DNA of 64,000 bases from Lachnospiraceae bacterium (GTDB lineage: Bacteria > Bacillota > Clostridia > Lachnospirales > Lachnospiraceae). A model generated the notes under the pieces. That model had not been told where the DNA came from. It did no database searches and was given only the letters and a program-made list of their open reading frames with translations. The stretch covers positions 26,326 to 90,325 of the forward strand of contig JALELK010000107.1 of the NCBI GenBank assembly GCA_022768745.1. Direction: 5' to 3'. Below, piece by piece: positions 1,375-34,441 of this stretch (position 1 is the stretch's first letter; each line of letters begins with the position of its first letter). The position numbers were made by a program, and so were the translations under genes.

Positions 1375-3453
1375 ATGGCAAAGTATCTAGTGATTGTGGA
1401 GTCACCGGCAAAAGTAAAGACGATAAAGAAATTTTTGGGAAAAAATTATGAGGTTATGGCTTCAAATGGGCATGTGAGAGATTTGCCAAAGAGCCAGTTG
1501 GGATTTGACCCGGAAAATGATTATGAACCAAAGTATATTACGATTCGCGGTAAAGGGGAGCTGTTGGCAGGCCTTCGGAAAGAGGCAAAAAAAGCAGATA
1601 AAATTTATCTTGCAACTGACCCGGACCGAGAGGGGGAAGCAATTTCCTGGCATTTGACCAAGGCATTGAAGTTGGAAGATAAAAATGTTGCCAGAATTAC
1701 GTTCAATGAAATTACAAAGACGGCAGTGAAAAACTCTCTGAAAAATCCCAGAGATATTGATATGAATCTGGTGGACTCCCAGCAGGCAAGAAGAATGCTG
1801 GATCGTATGGTGGGATACAAAATTAGTCCATTGCTTTGGGTAAAGGTGAAGCGTGGGCTTAGTGCCGGACGTGTTCAGTCTGTGGCATTGCGTCTGATTT
1901 GTGACAGAGAAGAGGAGATTAATGCATTTATTCCTCAGGAATACTACACACTGGATGTTCTCTTAGACAATAAGGATACCAAAAAGCAGTTTGTTGCTAA
2001 ATTTTATGGAGATAAAAACGGAAAGTTAGAAATTTCCGACAAAAAATCCTTGGATAAGATTATGGATTCTTTGCAAAAGGCGGAGTATCATGTGGATTCT
2101 GTCAAGACAGGAAGCCGGGAAAAGAAGGCACCATTGCCATTTACCACCAGTACCCTGCAACAGGAGGCATCCAAGGCGCTTAACTTCTCCATTCAAAAAA
2201 CTATGCGGGTGGCACAGCAGCTCTATGAAGGTGTTGATGTAAAAGGAATTGGTACCGTTGGTTTGATTACCTACCTTCGTACGGATTCTGTCAGAATTTC
2301 TGACGAGGCAAAGGCGGCTGCAGCTTCTTTTATCTCAGAAAATTATGGCGATGACTATCTTCAGGATGGCGTAGGAAGAAGTAAAAAATCCGGAGCAAAA
2401 GTTCAGGATGCCCATGAGGCCATTCGTCCTTCCGATATTTCCAGAGTCCCTTCAGAGATTAAGGCTTCTCTTTCCAGAGACCAGTTCCGGCTTTATCAGT
2501 TGATTTGGAAGCGCTTTGTGGCCAGCCAGATGAGCAATTCTGTATATGAGACTGTAAATGTTAAAATCGGAGCAGGGGATTACGTGTTTACCGTATCCGA
2601 TTCCAAGAGGCTGTTTGACGGTTTTATGTTGGTTTATACAGAGGCGGATGAGGAAAAGGATGACAAGGTGTTAAGTGCCCATAGTCTCACCAAAGACTCC
2701 AAACTGGGATTTGATTCTTTCCAGGAAAAACAGCACTTTACCCAGCCTGCACCTCATTTTACTGAGGCATCATTGGTACGGACTTTGGAAGAACTGGGAA
2801 TTGGGCGACCAAGTACATATTCGCCAATTATCTCGACTTTGTTAAAGCGTCGTTACATTACCAAGGAGGCAAAAAATATTTTTGTTACCGAATTGGGAGA
2901 AGTGGTAAACGGCATTATGAAGGAGTCTTTCCCGTCTATTGTAGATGAACATTTTACAGCAAATCTTGAGGGTCTGTTAGATAAGATTGAAGAGGGCAGT
3001 GTTTCTTGGAAATCCGTTATCAGTAATTTCTATCCGGATTTGGAGGAAGCTGTCAAAGTTGCCGAGAGTGAATTGGAAAAGGTAAAAATTGAAGATGAGG
3101 TTACCGATGTAATCTGCGAGGAATGCGGACGCAATATGGTGGTGAAATATGGACCTCACGGAAAGTTTTTGGCCTGTCCGGGATTCCCGGAATGTCGTAA
3201 CACAAAGCCTTATCTGGAAAAGATAGGCGTTGCCTGTCCAAAGTGCGGCAAGGATGTGGTACTTAAAAAATCGAAAAAAGGTCGTAGATTCTACGGATGT
3301 GAAAATAATCCGGAATGTGATTTTATGTCCTGGTCCAAACCGGTGAGCAAACCTTGTCCGGAATGTGGCGGATATATGGTTGTCAAAGGGAATAAACTTG
3401 TCTGTCAAAATGAAGAATGCAGACATGTTGAAATTGCGGAAAAAAACGACTAA
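1375..3453 (+). CDS. topA: DNA topoisomerase I with C-terminal zinc fingers
   Basis: MAKYLVIVESPAKVKTIKKFLGKNYEV, TDPDREGEAISWHL, SAGRVQSVALRL, Cys4 motifs at the C-terminus. Confidence 0.98.
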   Translation: MAKYLVIVESPAKVKTIKKFLGKNYEVMASNGHVRDLPKSQLGFDPENDYEPKYITIRGKGELLAGLRKEAKKADKIYLATDPDREGEAISWHLTKALKLEDKNVARITFNEITKTAVKNSLKNPRDIDMNLVDSQQARRMLDRMVGYKISPLLWVKVKRGLSAGRVQSVALRLICDREEEINAFIPQEYYTLDVLLDNKDTKKQFVAKFYGDKNGKLEISDKKSLDKIMDSLQKAEYHVDSVKTGSREKKAPLPFTTSTLQQEASKALNFSIQKTMRVAQQLYEGVDVKGIGTVGLITYLRTDSVRISDEAKAAAASFISENYGDDYLQDGVGRSKKSGAKVQDAHEAIRPSDISRVPSEIKASLSRDQFRLYQLIWKRFVASQMSNSVYETVNVKIGAGDYVFTVSDSKRLFDGFMLVYTEADEEKDDKVLSAHSLTKDSKLGFDSFQEKQHFTQPAPHFTEASLVRTLEELGIGRPSTYSPIISTLLKRRYITKEAKNIFVTELGEVVNGIMKESFPSIVDEHFTANLEGLLDKIEEGSVSWKSVISNFYPDLEEAVKVAESELEKVKIEDEVTDVICEECGRNMVVKYGPHGKFLACPGFPECRNTKPYLEKIGVACPKCGKDVVLKKSKKGRRFYGCENNPECDFMSWSKPVSKPCPECGGYMVVKGNKLVCQNEECRHVEIAEKND

Positions 3454-3462
3454 TATTTATTC

Positions 3463-3477
3463 AATTTTCAGAATATA
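3463..3477. promoter_or_regulatory. Putative CodY box AATTTTCAGAATATA
   Basis: 13/15 match to the published CodY consensus AATTTTCWGAAAATT, directly upstream of codY. Confidence 0.55.
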
Positions 3478-3478
3478 G

Positions 3479-3507
3479 TTGAATTTGTGTGAAATAGATG
3501 TTAATAT
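3479..3507 (+). promoter_or_regulatory. Putative sigma-A promoter for codY (TTGAAT-17-TAATAT)
   Basis: -35 TTGAAT 3479-3484, 17-nt spacer, -10 TAATAT 3502-3507. Confidence 0.55.
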
Positions 3508-3549
3508 TCCCTTGTATCTATTTGTTTTACAGATATAAGGAGGAAGCAA

Positions 3550-4326
3550 ATGAGCGTCCAATTGCTTGATAAAACGAGAAAAATAGGAAAGTTGTTGCAT
3601 AACAACAATTCGTCAAAGGTGGTATTTAACGACATCTGCCAGGTTTTGACGGAGATTCTGGATTCCTGTATTTTGGTAATTAGTAAAAAAGGTAAGGTGT
3701 TGGGCATTAGCCATTGCAAGGGAACTGTGGACATCACCGAGCTGATTGTGGATCAGGTGGGAGGTTTCATTGACCCGGTTCTAAATGAGAGGTTGTTAGG
3801 AATTCTCTCTACAAAAGAAAATGTAAACCTTCAGACCCTTGGATTTGAAAAAGATGAGATAGAAAAGTACTCTGCTATTATTGCACCCCTTGATATTGCA
3901 GGGGAAAGGCTTGGTACCTTGTTTGTGTATCGCTACGATCGCCCTTACGATATTGATGATATTATTCTCTGTGAGTACGGTACCACAGTGGTAGGACTTG
4001 AGATGATGCGTTCTGTCAATGAGGAGAGTGCTGAGGAAAATCGTAAGATTCAAATTGTAAAATCAGCAATCAGTACATTATCTTTTTCCGAGTTGGAAGC
4101 AATTATTCATATCTTTGATGAGTTAGACGGTACGGAAGGAATTCTGGTAGCATCGAAGATTGCGGATCGTGTGGGCATTACCCGCTCCGTGATTGTAAAT
4201 GCACTTCGGAAGTTTGAGAGTGCAGGGGTAATTGAGTCCCGGTCATCCGGTATGAAGGGGACATACATCAAGGTATTAAACGATGTGGTGTTTGATGAGT
4301 TGGACAAGGTTCGGAGAACACAGTAG
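3550..4326 (+). CDS. codY: GTP-sensing transcriptional pleiotropic repressor CodY
   Basis: MSVQLLDKTRKIGKLLH..., C-terminal wHTH ASKIADRVGITRSVIVNALRKFESAGVIESRSSGMKGTYIKVLN. Confidence 0.97.
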   Translation: MSVQLLDKTRKIGKLLHNNNSSKVVFNDICQVLTEILDSCILVISKKGKVLGISHCKGTVDITELIVDQVGGFIDPVLNERLLGILSTKENVNLQTLGFEKDEIEKYSAIIAPLDIAGERLGTLFVYRYDRPYDIDDIILCEYGTTVVGLEMMRSVNEESAEENRKIQIVKSAISTLSFSELEAIIHIFDELDGTEGILVASKIADRVGITRSVIVNALRKFESAGVIESRSSGMKGTYIKVLNDVVFDELDKVRRTQ

Positions 4327-4356
4327 CAGAAATGAAATAGCATGGATGGAATATTT

Positions 4357-4390
4357 AAAAGGACTTATGGGTGACCATGGGTCCTTTTGT
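4357..4390 (+). terminator. Intrinsic terminator after codY
   Basis: AAAAGGAC...ATGG-GTGA-CCAT...GTCCTTTT followed by T-rich tail. Confidence 0.7.
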
Positions 4391-20850: not shown

Positions 20851-21213
20851 ATGGCAAAGAATATTTTAATTAGTGATGATGCAGCTTTTATGAGAATGAT
20901 GATTAGAGATATCCTTACCAAAAATGGATACAATGTGGTGGGAGAAGCTGAGAACGGAAAGGTAGCAGTCGATAAGTATGTGGAATTAAAGCCGGATCTG
21001 GTGCTGATGGATATCACAATGCCGGAGATGGATGGAATTGAAGCATTGAAGGCTATCAGAGAAAAAGATGGAAATGCGGCTGTTATCATGTGTTCGGCTA
21101 TGGGACAGCAGGCTATGGTTATCGAAGCAATTCAGTCCGGAGCAAAGGATTTTATTGTAAAACCATTCCAGGCAGAACGTGTTTTGGAAGCAGTAAAGAA
21201 GGTTATTGGTTAA
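20851..21213 (+). CDS. cheY: Chemotaxis response regulator CheY
   Basis: ILISDDAAFMRMMIRDIL, LVLMDITMPEMDG, FIVKPF; all canonical receiver residues present. Confidence 0.95.
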   Translation: MAKNILISDDAAFMRMMIRDILTKNGYNVVGEAENGKVAVDKYVELKPDLVLMDITMPEMDGIEALKAIREKDGNAAVIMCSAMGQQAMVIEAIQSGAKDFIVKPFQAERVLEAVKKVIG

Positions 21214-28908: not shown

Positions 28909-29649
28909 ATGGAGATAAATCAGCTTTTATTGGGATGTAAGGTAGATATCAGAATTGTCCAGCAGATTATGCAAAACAATCCGCAAAACGACAAAAAGGG
29001 TGTTTTTTATTCTACTCTTTATGATATTAATTCGGATAACACCCTGGAATTAAATATGCCTTCTGAGGCCGGAAGACTTCAAATTCTGCCCAAAAACATA
29101 CGTTATGAATTTATATTTACTATGGATCAGGGCATCTATAAGGCAGATGGCACCATCACGGAGCATTTGAAAAAAGGTTCGGTTTATCTACTGAAGGCAG
29201 AACTTACCTCGAAACTGGAAAAAATACAGCGCAGGGAATATTTTAGAATTGCCTGCCTTTTGCCTATGACATTTGTGGCTGTAGATGAGAAGGCCATTAG
29301 TTTTCACAGTATAAAAGAGGTAAAAGACAATTTAGAGTCGACGAATGATTTTAAGGTTCGGGGTATGGGGTCTATTTTGGATATCAGTGGCGGGGGCGTA
29401 CGGTTCGTCTCTTCTAATTCCTTATCCGAAATAAAATATATATTGATGCAGTTTGAGATGGAAATGGAAGAGGGGAGACAGAGGGTAGAAACCATTGTCA
29501 GACTTGTTTCATCTACAAAAATGCCGGATGACAACAAATATATCCATCGTGGACAGTTTTACTTTAAAGATGAAAAGACAAAGGAACATGTGATAAGGTT
29601 TATTTTTGAGGAAGAACGCAGAATTAGGAAGAAGGAACAGGGGATATAA
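28909..29649 (+). CDS. YcgR-like flagellar brake protein with PilZ domain (c-di-GMP receptor)
   Basis: RREYFRIACLLPMTF (RxxxR-type) and DISGGGVRF (D/NxSxxG) PilZ motifs. Confidence 0.88.
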   Translation: MEINQLLLGCKVDIRIVQQIMQNNPQNDKKGVFYSTLYDINSDNTLELNMPSEAGRLQILPKNIRYEFIFTMDQGIYKADGTITEHLKKGSVYLLKAELTSKLEKIQRREYFRIACLLPMTFVAVDEKAISFHSIKEVKDNLESTNDFKVRGMGSILDISGGGVRFVSSNSLSEIKYILMQFEMEMEEGRQRVETIVRLVSSTKMPDDNKYIHRGQFYFKDEKTKEHVIRFIFEEERRIRKKEQGI

Positions 29650-30704
29650 TGAAAAAGGTGCTCGTTGTTAATGACTCTGCACTCATGAGAAGGATTGAGT
29701 GTGATATAATCAACTCAGATCCTGATTTTCAAGTGATTGATGTGAGTTTAAACATTGATGATGCCTACGATAAAATCAAGCAAAACAAATACGATATCGT
29801 TGTTTTGGAAATGGTTTTGCGTGGGGCAGATGGTCTGGACTTACTCAGACGATTAAAGGATGAACAGATACACATCACGGTGATTGCAGTCAGTACGCCG
29901 ATTCGTGAAGATGCAGGGGAAACCTTGCGGGCACTGGAAATGGGCGCCTATGACTTTGTGGCAAGACCTGCCAGACCTATTAGTGTATCAGATGATTTCG
30001 GGAAGCATTTGTTACGGGTGATGCATAATAGCTTTTCGGAGAAACCAAGGACAGCGGTAAAGAGAGAAAGACCTGCCGAACAATCCGGAGAAAATGCGGT
30101 GACCAGACCGGAACGCAAAAATGAGAAGCCGGAGATTGTTGCACTGGCTTGTTCTACCGGGGGGCCTCAGGCTCTTTACACGATGATTCCTATGTTGCCG
30201 AAGGAAATTGATGTGCCCATAGTGATTGTTCAGCATATGCCTACCGGATTTACGGAAGCCTTGTCCAATCGCCTGAATGAGTTGAGCAGAATCAATGTGA
30301 AAGAAGCTGAGGATGGAGATATCTTGCAACCGGGGTGGATTTACATTGCACCAGGTGGCAAACATATGGAAATCATTGAAAATCAGAACAAACAAGCCTG
30401 TGTGAGTGTGAATAAAAAACCACCGGTAAACAGTTTGCGACCATGTGCAGATGTTATGTATGAGTCTTTGATACATACCCATTACAAAAATATTTTGTGC
30501 GTGGTTCTAACCGGAATGGGTGCCGATGGCACAAAGGGCATTATTGAACTGGGCAGGCAGAAAAATGTATATGTTATTACTGAAAGCCAGGAGTCCTGTG
30601 TGGTTTACGGTATGCCGAAATCACTGGAGCAAAAAGGACTTTCGGATGAAACCTTTCCGATAGAAAAAATTTCGGAAGCCATTGTTAAGAAGCTAGGGGG
30701 ATAA
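29649..30704 (+). CDS. cheB: CheB-type protein-glutamate methylesterase with degenerate receiver domain
   Basis: Methylesterase ALACSTGGPQAL, QHMPTGF, TGMGADG intact; receiver VVNDSA...VVLEMVLRGADG...DFVARPARP. Confidence 0.93.
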   Translation: MKKVLVVNDSALMRRIECDIINSDPDFQVIDVSLNIDDAYDKIKQNKYDIVVLEMVLRGADGLDLLRRLKDEQIHITVIAVSTPIREDAGETLRALEMGAYDFVARPARPISVSDDFGKHLLRVMHNSFSEKPRTAVKRERPAEQSGENAVTRPERKNEKPEIVALACSTGGPQALYTMIPMLPKEIDVPIVIVQHMPTGFTEALSNRLNELSRINVKEAEDGDILQPGWIYIAPGGKHMEIIENQNKQACVSVNKKPPVNSLRPCADVMYESLIHTHYKNILCVVLTGMGADGTKGIIELGRQKNVYVITESQESCVVYGMPKSLEQKGLSDETFPIEKISEAIVKKLGG

Positions 30705-30707
30705 GAA

Positions 30708-32825
30708 ATGGATGTAAGTCAATATCTCGATATTTTTATCGACGAAACCAATGGTCATATTCAAACATTGAATGACAACATTATGATTTTGGAGAAAGAG
30801 CCTGAAAACAAGGATGTTATCAATGAGATTTTCCGTGCAGCACACTCTTTAAAAGGAATGGCCGGCACAATGGGATTTAAGAAGATGCAGAGACTGACCC
30901 ATGATATGGAAAATCTGTTTCAGGAAATCCGCAATGACAATATCAAGGTGAACAGTTCGTTGATTGATATACTGTTTAGTTGCCTGGATGCCATTGAGGA
31001 ATACTTAGAGACTGTCAAAGCCACATCCGGTGAGGGCGACAATGGAAATGAAGCGTTGATTCAGCAGTTAAATGACTTTATTGCGGCTGAGGAAGGCAAA
31101 CCTCAGGAAGCACCGGCAGAGGCGGCTGGGGAAACAAAAGCGTCTGAGGGCGAAGCAAAAGCGGATAGTTCAGAGAAAAAGTATTTAAATATAGACGTAG
31201 ATGATGTTTCATGCTCAAAAATGAAAGAGGCAGAGCAATCCGGTTTAAATATTTATGGAATGACTGTACATGTTCAGAAGGATTGTCTGTTGAAAGCGGC
31301 AAGAGCTTTCTTGGTATTTAAGGCAGTGGAAGATTTCGGTGAGATATTGGTGTATAATCCGAGTTCACAGGACATTGAGGATGAAAAATTTGATTTGGAT
31401 TTCAGTTTGATTATTTCTTCTTCCAGTGAGCTGGCACCGATTCTTGAGGCAGTCAATTCTGTTTCCGAGATTGAGAGTGTTGAGGCTGAAAAGGTTTCTT
31501 ATAGTAGTTATGTGGAAACATCGGCAGAAGTTCCGGCAGAGAAGCCAAAGGAGGAGACAAAGCCATCGGCAGCGGAGGCTCCTAAGAAGGAGAAGGCTCC
31601 GGCACCTAAGAATTCCGGCAAGAGTGCTTCAAATAACAAGCATTCCGGCACCAATAAACCGGTGACTGCCAGAACAGTTCGTGTGGATATTGAAAAACTG
31701 GATGCTCTGATGAATCAGGTAAGTGAGTTGATTATTGCCAAGAACAGTCTGGTGTCTATCAGTGATTCTGAACAGGACAATGAATTCAATACACAGACCT
31801 TCCATGATCAGATTGAATATTTGGAGAGGATTACCACAAATCTCCATGAATCTGTTATGAAGGTTCGAATGGTACCAATTGAAAGCGTAGTCAACAAGTT
31901 CCCACGTATGATTCGTGACCTGAGCCGAAAATTGAATAAACCGATGGAACTGTATATGTCAGGTGAGGAAACTGAGTTGGATCGTACCGTTGTGGATCAG
32001 ATTGGCGATCCGCTTCAGCATTTACTTCGTAATTCTGCAGACCACGGTATTGAGTCTCCGGAAGACCGAAAAAAAGCAGGAAAGCTGGAGTCAGGAAGCA
32101 TTTATTTGAAAGCCTTCCAGGAAGGAAACAATGTCATCATTGAAGTACGGGATGATGGTGCAGGTATTGATACAGAAAAGGTGAAGGAAAAAGCTGTAGA
32201 GAGAGGGCTTGTATCAGAAGAGCAGGCAGCAAACCTCTCCAAGAAGGAAATTATAGATTTCCTGTTTATGCCAAGTTTTTCTATGGCAAAAACCATTACC
32301 GATATTTCCGGACGTGGTGTAGGACTGGATGTAGTAAAGTCAAATATTGAAGCGTTAGGCGGAGATGTAGAAGTTAAGAGTACTATGGGAGTTGGAACCA
32401 CATTTATTGTGAGACTTCCACTTACACTTGCTATCATTCAGGCTCTTATGGTTGAAGTGAGGGATGAAAAATATGCCATTGCCCTTGGCTCAATTCAGAA
32501 CATTGAAAATGTTTCTGTCAATGACATCAAATATGTTCAAGCAGAAGAGGTAATTCACTTAAGAGGTATGGTAATTCCTTTGATTCGTTTGGATGAATTG
32601 TTGGATTCCGCTCCAAAGGAAGAAGAGGATGAAAATCTTACAGTTGTTGTCGTTAAGAAAGGTGACAATTATGCAGGACTGGTAGTTGACAACCTGATTG
32701 GACAGCAGGAAATTGTTATTAAGTCTTTAGGAAAGTGCATTGATAACAATAAGATTATCAATGGTGCAACCATTCTTGGTGATGGTGAAGTAGCGTTGAT
32801 TATTGATGTGAATGCAATCTTTTAA
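30708..32825 (+). CDS. cheA: Chemotaxis histidine kinase CheA
   Basis: HPt AAHSLKGMAGTMGF, H-box/N-box HLLRNSADHGIESPEDR, CheW-like C-terminus. Confidence 0.98.
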   Translation: MDVSQYLDIFIDETNGHIQTLNDNIMILEKEPENKDVINEIFRAAHSLKGMAGTMGFKKMQRLTHDMENLFQEIRNDNIKVNSSLIDILFSCLDAIEEYLETVKATSGEGDNGNEALIQQLNDFIAAEEGKPQEAPAEAAGETKASEGEAKADSSEKKYLNIDVDDVSCSKMKEAEQSGLNIYGMTVHVQKDCLLKAARAFLVFKAVEDFGEILVYNPSSQDIEDEKFDLDFSLIISSSSELAPILEAVNSVSEIESVEAEKVSYSSYVETSAEVPAEKPKEETKPSAAEAPKKEKAPAPKNSGKSASNNKHSGTNKPVTARTVRVDIEKLDALMNQVSELIIAKNSLVSISDSEQDNEFNTQTFHDQIEYLERITTNLHESVMKVRMVPIESVVNKFPRMIRDLSRKLNKPMELYMSGEETELDRTVVDQIGDPLQHLLRNSADHGIESPEDRKKAGKLESGSIYLKAFQEGNNVIIEVRDDGAGIDTEKVKEKAVERGLVSEEQAANLSKKEIIDFLFMPSFSMAKTITDISGRGVGLDVVKSNIEALGGDVEVKSTMGVGTTFIVRLPLTLAIIQALMVEVRDEKYAIALGSIQNIENVSVNDIKYVQAEEVIHLRGMVIPLIRLDELLDSAPKEEEDENLTVVVVKKGDNYAGLVVDNLIGQQEIVIKSLGKCIDNNKIINGATILGDGEVALIIDVNAIF

Positions 32826-32842: not shown

Positions 32843-33313
32843 ATGGCAGATAAATATGGAGTAGATGTGGCAGAAAAGGAAAAAGTGCAGTACATTGTTG
32901 TTTCCATTGGAAACGAGCATTATGGATTAGATATTTCTTATGTGGATAATATTGTCAGAATGTGCAAGATTACCCGTGTGCCGAAAGCACCATTTCACTA
33001 TATCGGAATTATCAACTTGAGAGGTGAAGTGGTTCCTTTGATGAGCCTCAGAAGAAAAATGAAATTGGATGATGATACCTTTACGGATTTGTCCAGAATC
33101 ATTATCTTAAAGACAGAAGAACAGGGCCTTGTAGGTGTGGTTGTAGATGAAGTCAAAGAAGTGATTGCACTCTCACCGGATGAGATTGATCGCAATGCTA
33201 AGAGCTCTCAGCCTGACAAGGAAAACTATATCAATGGTATCGGCAAAAATGGTGATGAATTGATTTCTATATTTGAAATTTCTTCTATTTTGGACGAGGT
33301 AGAGGTTTCATAA
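32843..33313 (+). CDS. cheW: Chemotaxis coupling protein CheW
   Basis: YIVVSIGNEHYGLDISYVDNIVRM...PFHYIGIINLRGEVVPLMSLRRKM. Confidence 0.95.
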   Translation: MADKYGVDVAEKEKVQYIVVSIGNEHYGLDISYVDNIVRMCKITRVPKAPFHYIGIINLRGEVVPLMSLRRKMKLDDDTFTDLSRIIILKTEEQGLVGVVVDEVKEVIALSPDEIDRNAKSSQPDKENYINGIGKNGDELISIFEISSILDEVEVS

Positions 33314-33328: not shown

Positions 33329-33943
33329 ATGATTAGTTTACAGGAAGTAAATGAGAAATACATAGATGTTCTCAAGGAAATAGGTAACATTGGAGCGGGA
33401 AATGCAACCACAGCGATTGCAAATATGTTGGGACTTCGTATTGATATGAGTGTCCCACAGGTTCAATTTTTGCCGGTTGAGGATATTGGCTCATCCATAG
33501 GTGCAGAGGATGACGTGATTGTAGGGATTATGTTAGGGGTTGAATCAGATATTCAGGGAAGTATGATGTTCCTTATGGATATGAATTCTGCACACCATAT
33601 TATTAATCGTCTGATGATGCGTCCGGATGACTACATGGAAGACTTTGATGAGATGGATTTGTCTGCGGTAAAAGAAGTTGGAAATATTATTGCAGGTTCT
33701 TATTTGTCCGCTTTGTCCGGACTGACAAATCTTACTATCACACCTACCGTTCCTTTTGTGGCAGTAGATATGGCAGCGGCGATTTTAAGTGTGCCTGCTG
33801 TCCAGTTCGGAATGATGGGTGATAATGCGTTGTTGATTAAGACGGAATTCAGTGATGAGTTAAAGATTAATGGATATTTTATTCTGATGCCGGAAGAAGA
33901 GTCATATGAAAAGATATTAACCGCATTGGGATTGCCGTTGTAG
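33329..33943 (+). CDS. cheC: CheY-P phosphatase CheC
   Basis: KEIGNIGAGNATTAIANML and AVKEVGNIIAGSYLSALS, two CheC active-site motifs. Confidence 0.95.
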   Translation: MISLQEVNEKYIDVLKEIGNIGAGNATTAIANMLGLRIDMSVPQVQFLPVEDIGSSIGAEDDVIVGIMLGVESDIQGSMMFLMDMNSAHHIINRLMMRPDDYMEDFDEMDLSAVKEVGNIIAGSYLSALSGLTNLTITPTVPFVAVDMAAAILSVPAVQFGMMGDNALLIKTEFSDELKINGYFILMPEEESYEKILTALGLPL

Positions 33944-33952
33944 GGGAAGTGT

Positions 33953-34441
33953 ATGGGACAGTTGATTAAGGTTGGTATGGCAGATCTTAAGATATGCAAA
34001 TCCCCTGATGTTTTGACGACCATTGGGTTGGGTTCCTGCATTGGAATCGCAATTTATGATCCTACAACAAAAATTAGTGGATTGGCGCATATTATGTTGC
34101 CTGACAGCACACAAATACGAAACAATACAAATATTGCAAAATTTGCAGATACAGGAATACAAAAGCTTTATGACGATATGATTAAGGCCGGTGCAAACCG
34201 AAGTAAAATGGTTGCCAAGATAGCCGGCGGAGCAAAGATGTTTGAATTGAGCAATTCCAATTCCCAAAGCATCAACATAGGTGATAAGAATGCTATGGCT
34301 TCCAGACAGAAGTTAAAAGAACTGGGGATACCTCTTGTGGCTGAGGATACCGGGTTGAACTTTGGTCGTACAGTGGAACTATATAGTGAGACGGGAGCAT
34401 ATCTGATTAAAGCAGTAGGAAAACAGGAAAAGTACATTTAA
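33953..34441 (+). CDS. cheD: Chemoreceptor glutamine deamidase CheD
   Basis: TIGLGSCIGIAIYDPTTKISGLAHIMLPDS; IAGGAKMF. Confidence 0.95.
   Translation: MGQLIKVGMADLKICKSPDVLTTIGLGSCIGIAIYDPTTKISGLAHIMLPDSTQIRNNTNIAKFADTGIQKLYDDMIKAGANRSKMVAKIAGGAKMFELSNSNSQSINIGDKNAMASRQKLKELGIPLVAEDTGLNFGRTVELYSETGAYLIKAVGKQEKYI

Follow-up and report, generated by a model that had tools for sequence, protein, structure and literature searches.

A chemotaxis methylesterase CheB with an aspartate-less pseudo-receiver domain in a clade of Lachnospiraceae

The cheB locus and its receiver pocket

We analyzed a window of 64,000 nucleotides from a gut-type Lachnospiraceae bacterium (assembly GCA_022768745.1, contig JALELK010000107.1), in which a run of chemotaxis genes on the forward strand includes a cheB gene at positions 29649-30704. 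Its 351-aa product scored 58 bits against the Pfam receiver profile PF00072 and 197 bits against the methylesterase profile PF01339, and exceeded the cut-off of the NCBIfam CheB profile. The original prediction had placed the CheB with its unusual receiver at 29649-30005, which is the extent of the receiver domain (residues about 1-119), while the gene itself continues to 30704. Where CheB receivers carry D-D, D, S/T and K, the window CheB has N8-D9, E54, S82 and R106. The N8-D9 codons (29670-29675; AAT at 29670-29672, followed by GAC) occupy the place of the Mg-binding acidic pair of normal receivers, GAA at 29808-29810 encodes E54 at the phospho-acceptor position, S82 is read from AGT, and AGA at 29964-29966 gives R106 in place of the conserved Lys. 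The methylesterase domain (residues 164-345; 30138-30683), delimited by PF01339 and by alignment to solved structures, contains the complete triad S169/H196/D293 in both translation and codons. Upon alignment to PDB entries, the pocket and triad residues fell on D10, D11, D56, the conserved Lys and S164/H190/D286 of the Salmonella/Pectobacterium enzymes, with E54 opposite D56 of Salmonella CheB. Translation, codons and structural alignment thus bore out the receiver residues and numbering that had been predicted, as well as the intact triad regions of the methylesterase.

Judged by its residues, the window CheB would be a protein-glutamate methylesterase, having both the CheB_methylest domain and the Ser-His-Asp triad, and would not belong to the phosphorylation-gated CheBs, which require a phospho-acceptor Asp, the DD pair, T/S and K. 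It matches the description of an aspartate-less or pseudo-receiver, namely a receiver fold without the phosphotransfer residues, with a PF00072 score above the cut-off. An AF2 model (mean pLDDT 89) retained the complete (beta-alpha)5 receiver fold, and its best matches among solved structures were the CheBs 6ymz and 1a2o. In established receiver chemistry, switching by CheA needs the phospho-acceptor Asp, and with no Asp and an Arg for the Lys, the usual CheA switching of the window CheB would be impossible. As far as the residues can tell, the loss of phosphorylation is near certain.

The other components of the pathway appeared intact. Pfam searches identified a PilZ/YcgR-like gene (28909-29649) directly upstream of cheB, which it overlaps by one base, and downstream, on the same strand, cheA (30708-32825; Hpt, P2, dimer, kinase and CheW-like domains), cheW (32843-33313), cheC (33329-33943) and cheD (33953-34441), the last two retaining, in a motif check, both E-x-G-N phosphatase motifs and the GLGSC and AHIMLP motifs, respectively. 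The operon cheY (20851-21213, same strand) has, as had been claimed, all of its canonical DD, D, S and K residues in a pocket check. Among members of the clade described below, the Hpt His and P2 of CheA, the DD/D/S/K of CheY, both E-x-G-N motifs of CheC and the Cys and His motifs of CheD were retained wherever the genes were recovered. Within the fetched stretches, the order flhF-ylxH-pilZ-cheB-cheA-cheW-cheC-cheD-sigD was common to Asp-less and most canonical operons. In two loci with a canonical CheB, L124 and L136 of Eubacterium-like bacteria, no cheC was recognized between cheW and cheD. The window genome also encodes CheR and, beyond what the original prediction had taken into account, a CheV with an apparently intact receiver. 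Of the 17 genomes whose fla CheB is Asp-less or decayed, 16 have CheR.

Distribution and phylogeny of Asp-less CheBs

We sampled 120 genomes of the family and scanned named genomes as well. All 84 canonical family CheBs in the comparison carry DDDSK at the five pocket positions, so the change in the pocket exceeds chance. Aligning the CheB receivers of related species, a check that had been proposed with the original prediction, revealed that the loss of the Asp is common to the same genus (genome G066, pocket DNETR) and to related genera, where it is missing in 13 CheBs; pocket readings included DDNSR in G034 and DDNCR in G049 and G083. Ten of the Asp-less CheBs came from the named genomes, all from records labeled Lachnospiraceae (UBA7784, RUG335, RUG096, RUI004, RUI243, C10, RUI047, RGIG619 and two metagenome bins). 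Outside the family, none of 25 CheBs, in a sample picked by similarity, had lost the Asp. The S-H-D triad was present in 80/80 CheBs of the named-genome set, degenerate members included, and likewise in the other CheBs aligned.

In a tree of 104 CheBs built from the esterase only, leaving out the receiver so that the trait could not bias the topology, 15 of the 17 CheBs lacking the Asp or the pocket fell into a single clade (SH-aLRT 97). The label changes three times in total on this tree, the two losses outside the clade being independent. An earlier whole-protein CheB tree had yielded the same core clade (100/100), and eight other genes of the operon, analyzed as a tree over 2335 columns, again united the same 15 operons (SH-aLRT 100), indicating that the Asp-less trait is vertical rather than brought in with an acquired gene; a horizontally acquired CheB was rejected on these grounds. 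In L056 (G037), an independent change of the phospho-Asp to Asn left the remaining pocket intact (DDNSK) and could be a recent loss. L069 (G023, 3164-4381) has a receiver beyond Pfam recognition (pocket SHDFK) next to an intact esterase (190 bits), an independent and more advanced receiver loss.

A methylesterase that may work independently of CheA

We consider it probable, at roughly 60%, that the CheB of this fla/che operon is a phosphorylation-blind methylesterase working at a fixed level. The receiver would no longer accept phosphate from CheA and would persist as a folded, fast-evolving pseudo-receiver, the esterase would still be made, intact and under selection, demethylating the receptors at a fixed, CheA-independent level, and the dependence on activity would be supplied by the receptor state, the CheC/CheD/CheY-P loop and CheV. 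A CheB working at a fixed level is the most likely outcome because the esterase is conserved, is usually the only one in the genome, and is accompanied by CheR in nearly all of the genomes concerned. Of the 17 genomes whose fla CheB has decayed or lacks the Asp, 13 contained no other CheB (these absences are provisional, as several of the genomes are incomplete drafts), and in a 14th the additional CheB is of the same Asp-less type, so it is this enzyme that has to do the work.

We infer that the window CheB is constitutively open. By analogy, its fixed activity is possibly low rather than high, because E. coli CheB mostly adopts the closed form when unphosphorylated; removing the regulatory domain activates the E. 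coli enzyme, less well than phosphate does (PMC8609364). What takes the place of the lost CheB phosphorylation we can likewise only infer, and with CheC and CheD intact, a feedback through these two proteins, as had been predicted, appears plausible. For B. subtilis, CheB phosphorylation has been judged an implausible regulator and CheY-P with CheC/CheD proposed instead, by authors who also state that it is unnecessary for adaptation in E. coli (PMC340952). The CheC/CheD/CheY machinery proposed for B. subtilis is also present in these Lachnospiraceae genomes.

Compared with canonical two-domain CheBs (E. coli/Salmonella 1A2O, Pectobacterium 6YMZ and other Lachnospiraceae fla-operon CheBs), the window CheB has the same domain order, triad, place in the operon and predicted fold, but other residues stand in for its phospho-acceptor Asp, its Lys and one acidic residue of the pocket. 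It resembles the CheB of Campylobacter jejuni in being a methylesterase without gating by CheA phosphate on its own receiver; in that F3-class enzyme of the Campylobacterota, however, the receiver is absent and CheA bears a receiver of its own (PMC3879368, PMC9321776), whereas the window CheB retains a folded pseudo-domain and stands beside CheC/CheD. With the pseudo-receivers RitR, ChxR and FrzS, where Asp is typically replaced by Glu or Asn and Lys by Arg (PMC4395418, PMC12632262), it shares a receiver fold without the phospho-Asp, while its output is a chemotaxis methylesterase. CheBs without phosphate gating and pseudo-receivers are thus both known, and we found no earlier pseudo-receiver CheB: the main texts of two pseudo-receiver reviews do not mention CheB (PMC4395418, PMC12632262). 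Nor did a literature search covering only a minority of subscription papers return any report of one.

The feedback that textbooks give for bacterial adaptation is phosphorylation of CheB. Theory and some data nevertheless hold that bacteria can do without it, particularly where CheC/CheD are present. Evolution has done away with it no fewer than three times within this family, in one case at the root of an entire clade, and has left the rest of the pathway intact. Whether adaptation requires the CheB switch can therefore be tested by comparing sister species, as in an experiment set up by nature. As this pseudo-receiver has an enzyme for its output, its on or off state could be read by a simple assay.

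Evolution of the receiver in the clade

With the five pocket columns excluded, the rate of the clade receivers relative to the esterase was 1.69x that of canonical relatives (24 site bootstraps, range 1.32-2.18), and at matched esterase identity their identity was typically about 0.08-0.18 lower, as read from the better-populated bins and from pairs that are non-independent. The Pfam receiver score was graded, from 62.6 bits in L102 and the 58 bits of the window to 29.8 in L146 and 24.8 in L068, both under the cut-off of 30.2, and to none in the independently degenerate L069. Helix 1 is nearly invariant in the clade (SALMR-x3-CDII; S10-A-L-M-R14, C18-D-I-I21), and E87-D88 and R/H at 109 are newly conserved, the latter within a motif R106-P107-x-R/H109 whose position 108 is aromatic (Y/F) in 13/15. 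In the aligned sequences, these new positions and the near-invariant helix suggest that the receiver has retained a role rather than undergone pure decay.

Such conservation, and the receiver fold kept in the model, would fit a pseudo-receiver in which a new input, be it a partner protein or a small molecule, gates the esterase in place of phosphate, and non-phosphorylation inputs have indeed been proposed for some pseudo-receivers (PMC12632262). We nevertheless regard this as unlikely, given the faster evolution of the receiver overall, the disappearance of any receiver signature from L069, and the Asp-less operons themselves, in which synteny was unchanged and neither a candidate ligand nor a new gene was found. 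A broader version for the Lachnospiraceae clade, in which the pseudo-receiver has a new input or a new structural role (E87-D88, RP-x-R/H) in place of CheA-gated feedback and adaptation proceeds without CheB phosphorylation in a CheC/CheD/CheV system, is likewise doubtful and could be put forward only tentatively.

The identity of the residue at the phospho-site bears on the proposal that E54 is a built-in phosphate mimic locking CheB open and fully active. Within the clade, the window CheB and that of G066 branch first, L102 (DDETK) next, and then twelve members with Asn; L102 grouped with the window in the CheA tree, whereas the operon tree joined it to the Asn clade (support 82). Glu is found at the site in the CheBs of the window and of G066 and in L102, which retains the Thr and Lys able to hold a Glu mimic and is the only clade member so configured. 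Amino-acid parsimony on the operon tree required 3 changes with Glu ancestral in the clade, but when codon steps were counted, histories with an ancestral Glu and with an ancestral Asp came out equal. Glu is the commonest substitution in Asp-less receivers and can partly activate some of them, but exchanging Asp for Glu often does not suffice, or has been refuted as the origin of the activity (PMC4395418, PMC12632262). Since the site is Asn, not Glu, in 12/15 clade members and the conserved Lys has become Arg in 13/15, in the window together with the loss of one acidic residue, the mimic is improbable. On these alignments, the feature common to the clade is the loss of the phosphorylation site and not the gain of a mimic. 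Of the original interpretation, conservation across the clade lends good support to a CheB that CheA no longer gates and whose esterase is active, while the role assigned to Glu as a phosphomimic comes out weak.

The second CheB of the window genome

A search for a second canonical CheB elsewhere in the genome, which lay beyond the view of the original prediction although proposed with it, was positive: contig C111 encodes a CheB with the canonical residues E,D,D,S,K. Its gene belongs to a separate che cluster, which also encodes CheR, CheA, CheW, an MCP and a receiver protein. The congener G066 likewise carries a second canonical CheB. This second type is a distant subfamily, with the phospho-site kept in 16/16 sampled members. 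Its presence in both genomes, with a CheR and a CheA of its own, could mean that the window CheB is vestigial or locked off and that demethylation falls to the second enzyme. We hold this to be very improbable, as the triad and esterase domain of the Asp-less CheB are conserved, a second CheB with an intact receiver is missing from most other clade genomes, and the one present here belongs to another subfamily and cluster. An error of sequencing or assembly at the three codons can practically be dismissed, even in a 116-contig draft that is 87.7% complete, because the frame is intact and related changes recur in independent genomes, both within the genus and in related genera.

Two further open frames were observed in these genomes. 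Near the second che cluster of the window genome, at 395-1024 of contig C111, L073 encodes a stand-alone 209-aa protein that resembles the CheC-type N-terminal part of FliY and has no FliN part. In a genome that also has an Asp-less fla CheB, a 1263-aa open frame, L174 (G126:C52:6147-7499), combines CheB and CheR domains.
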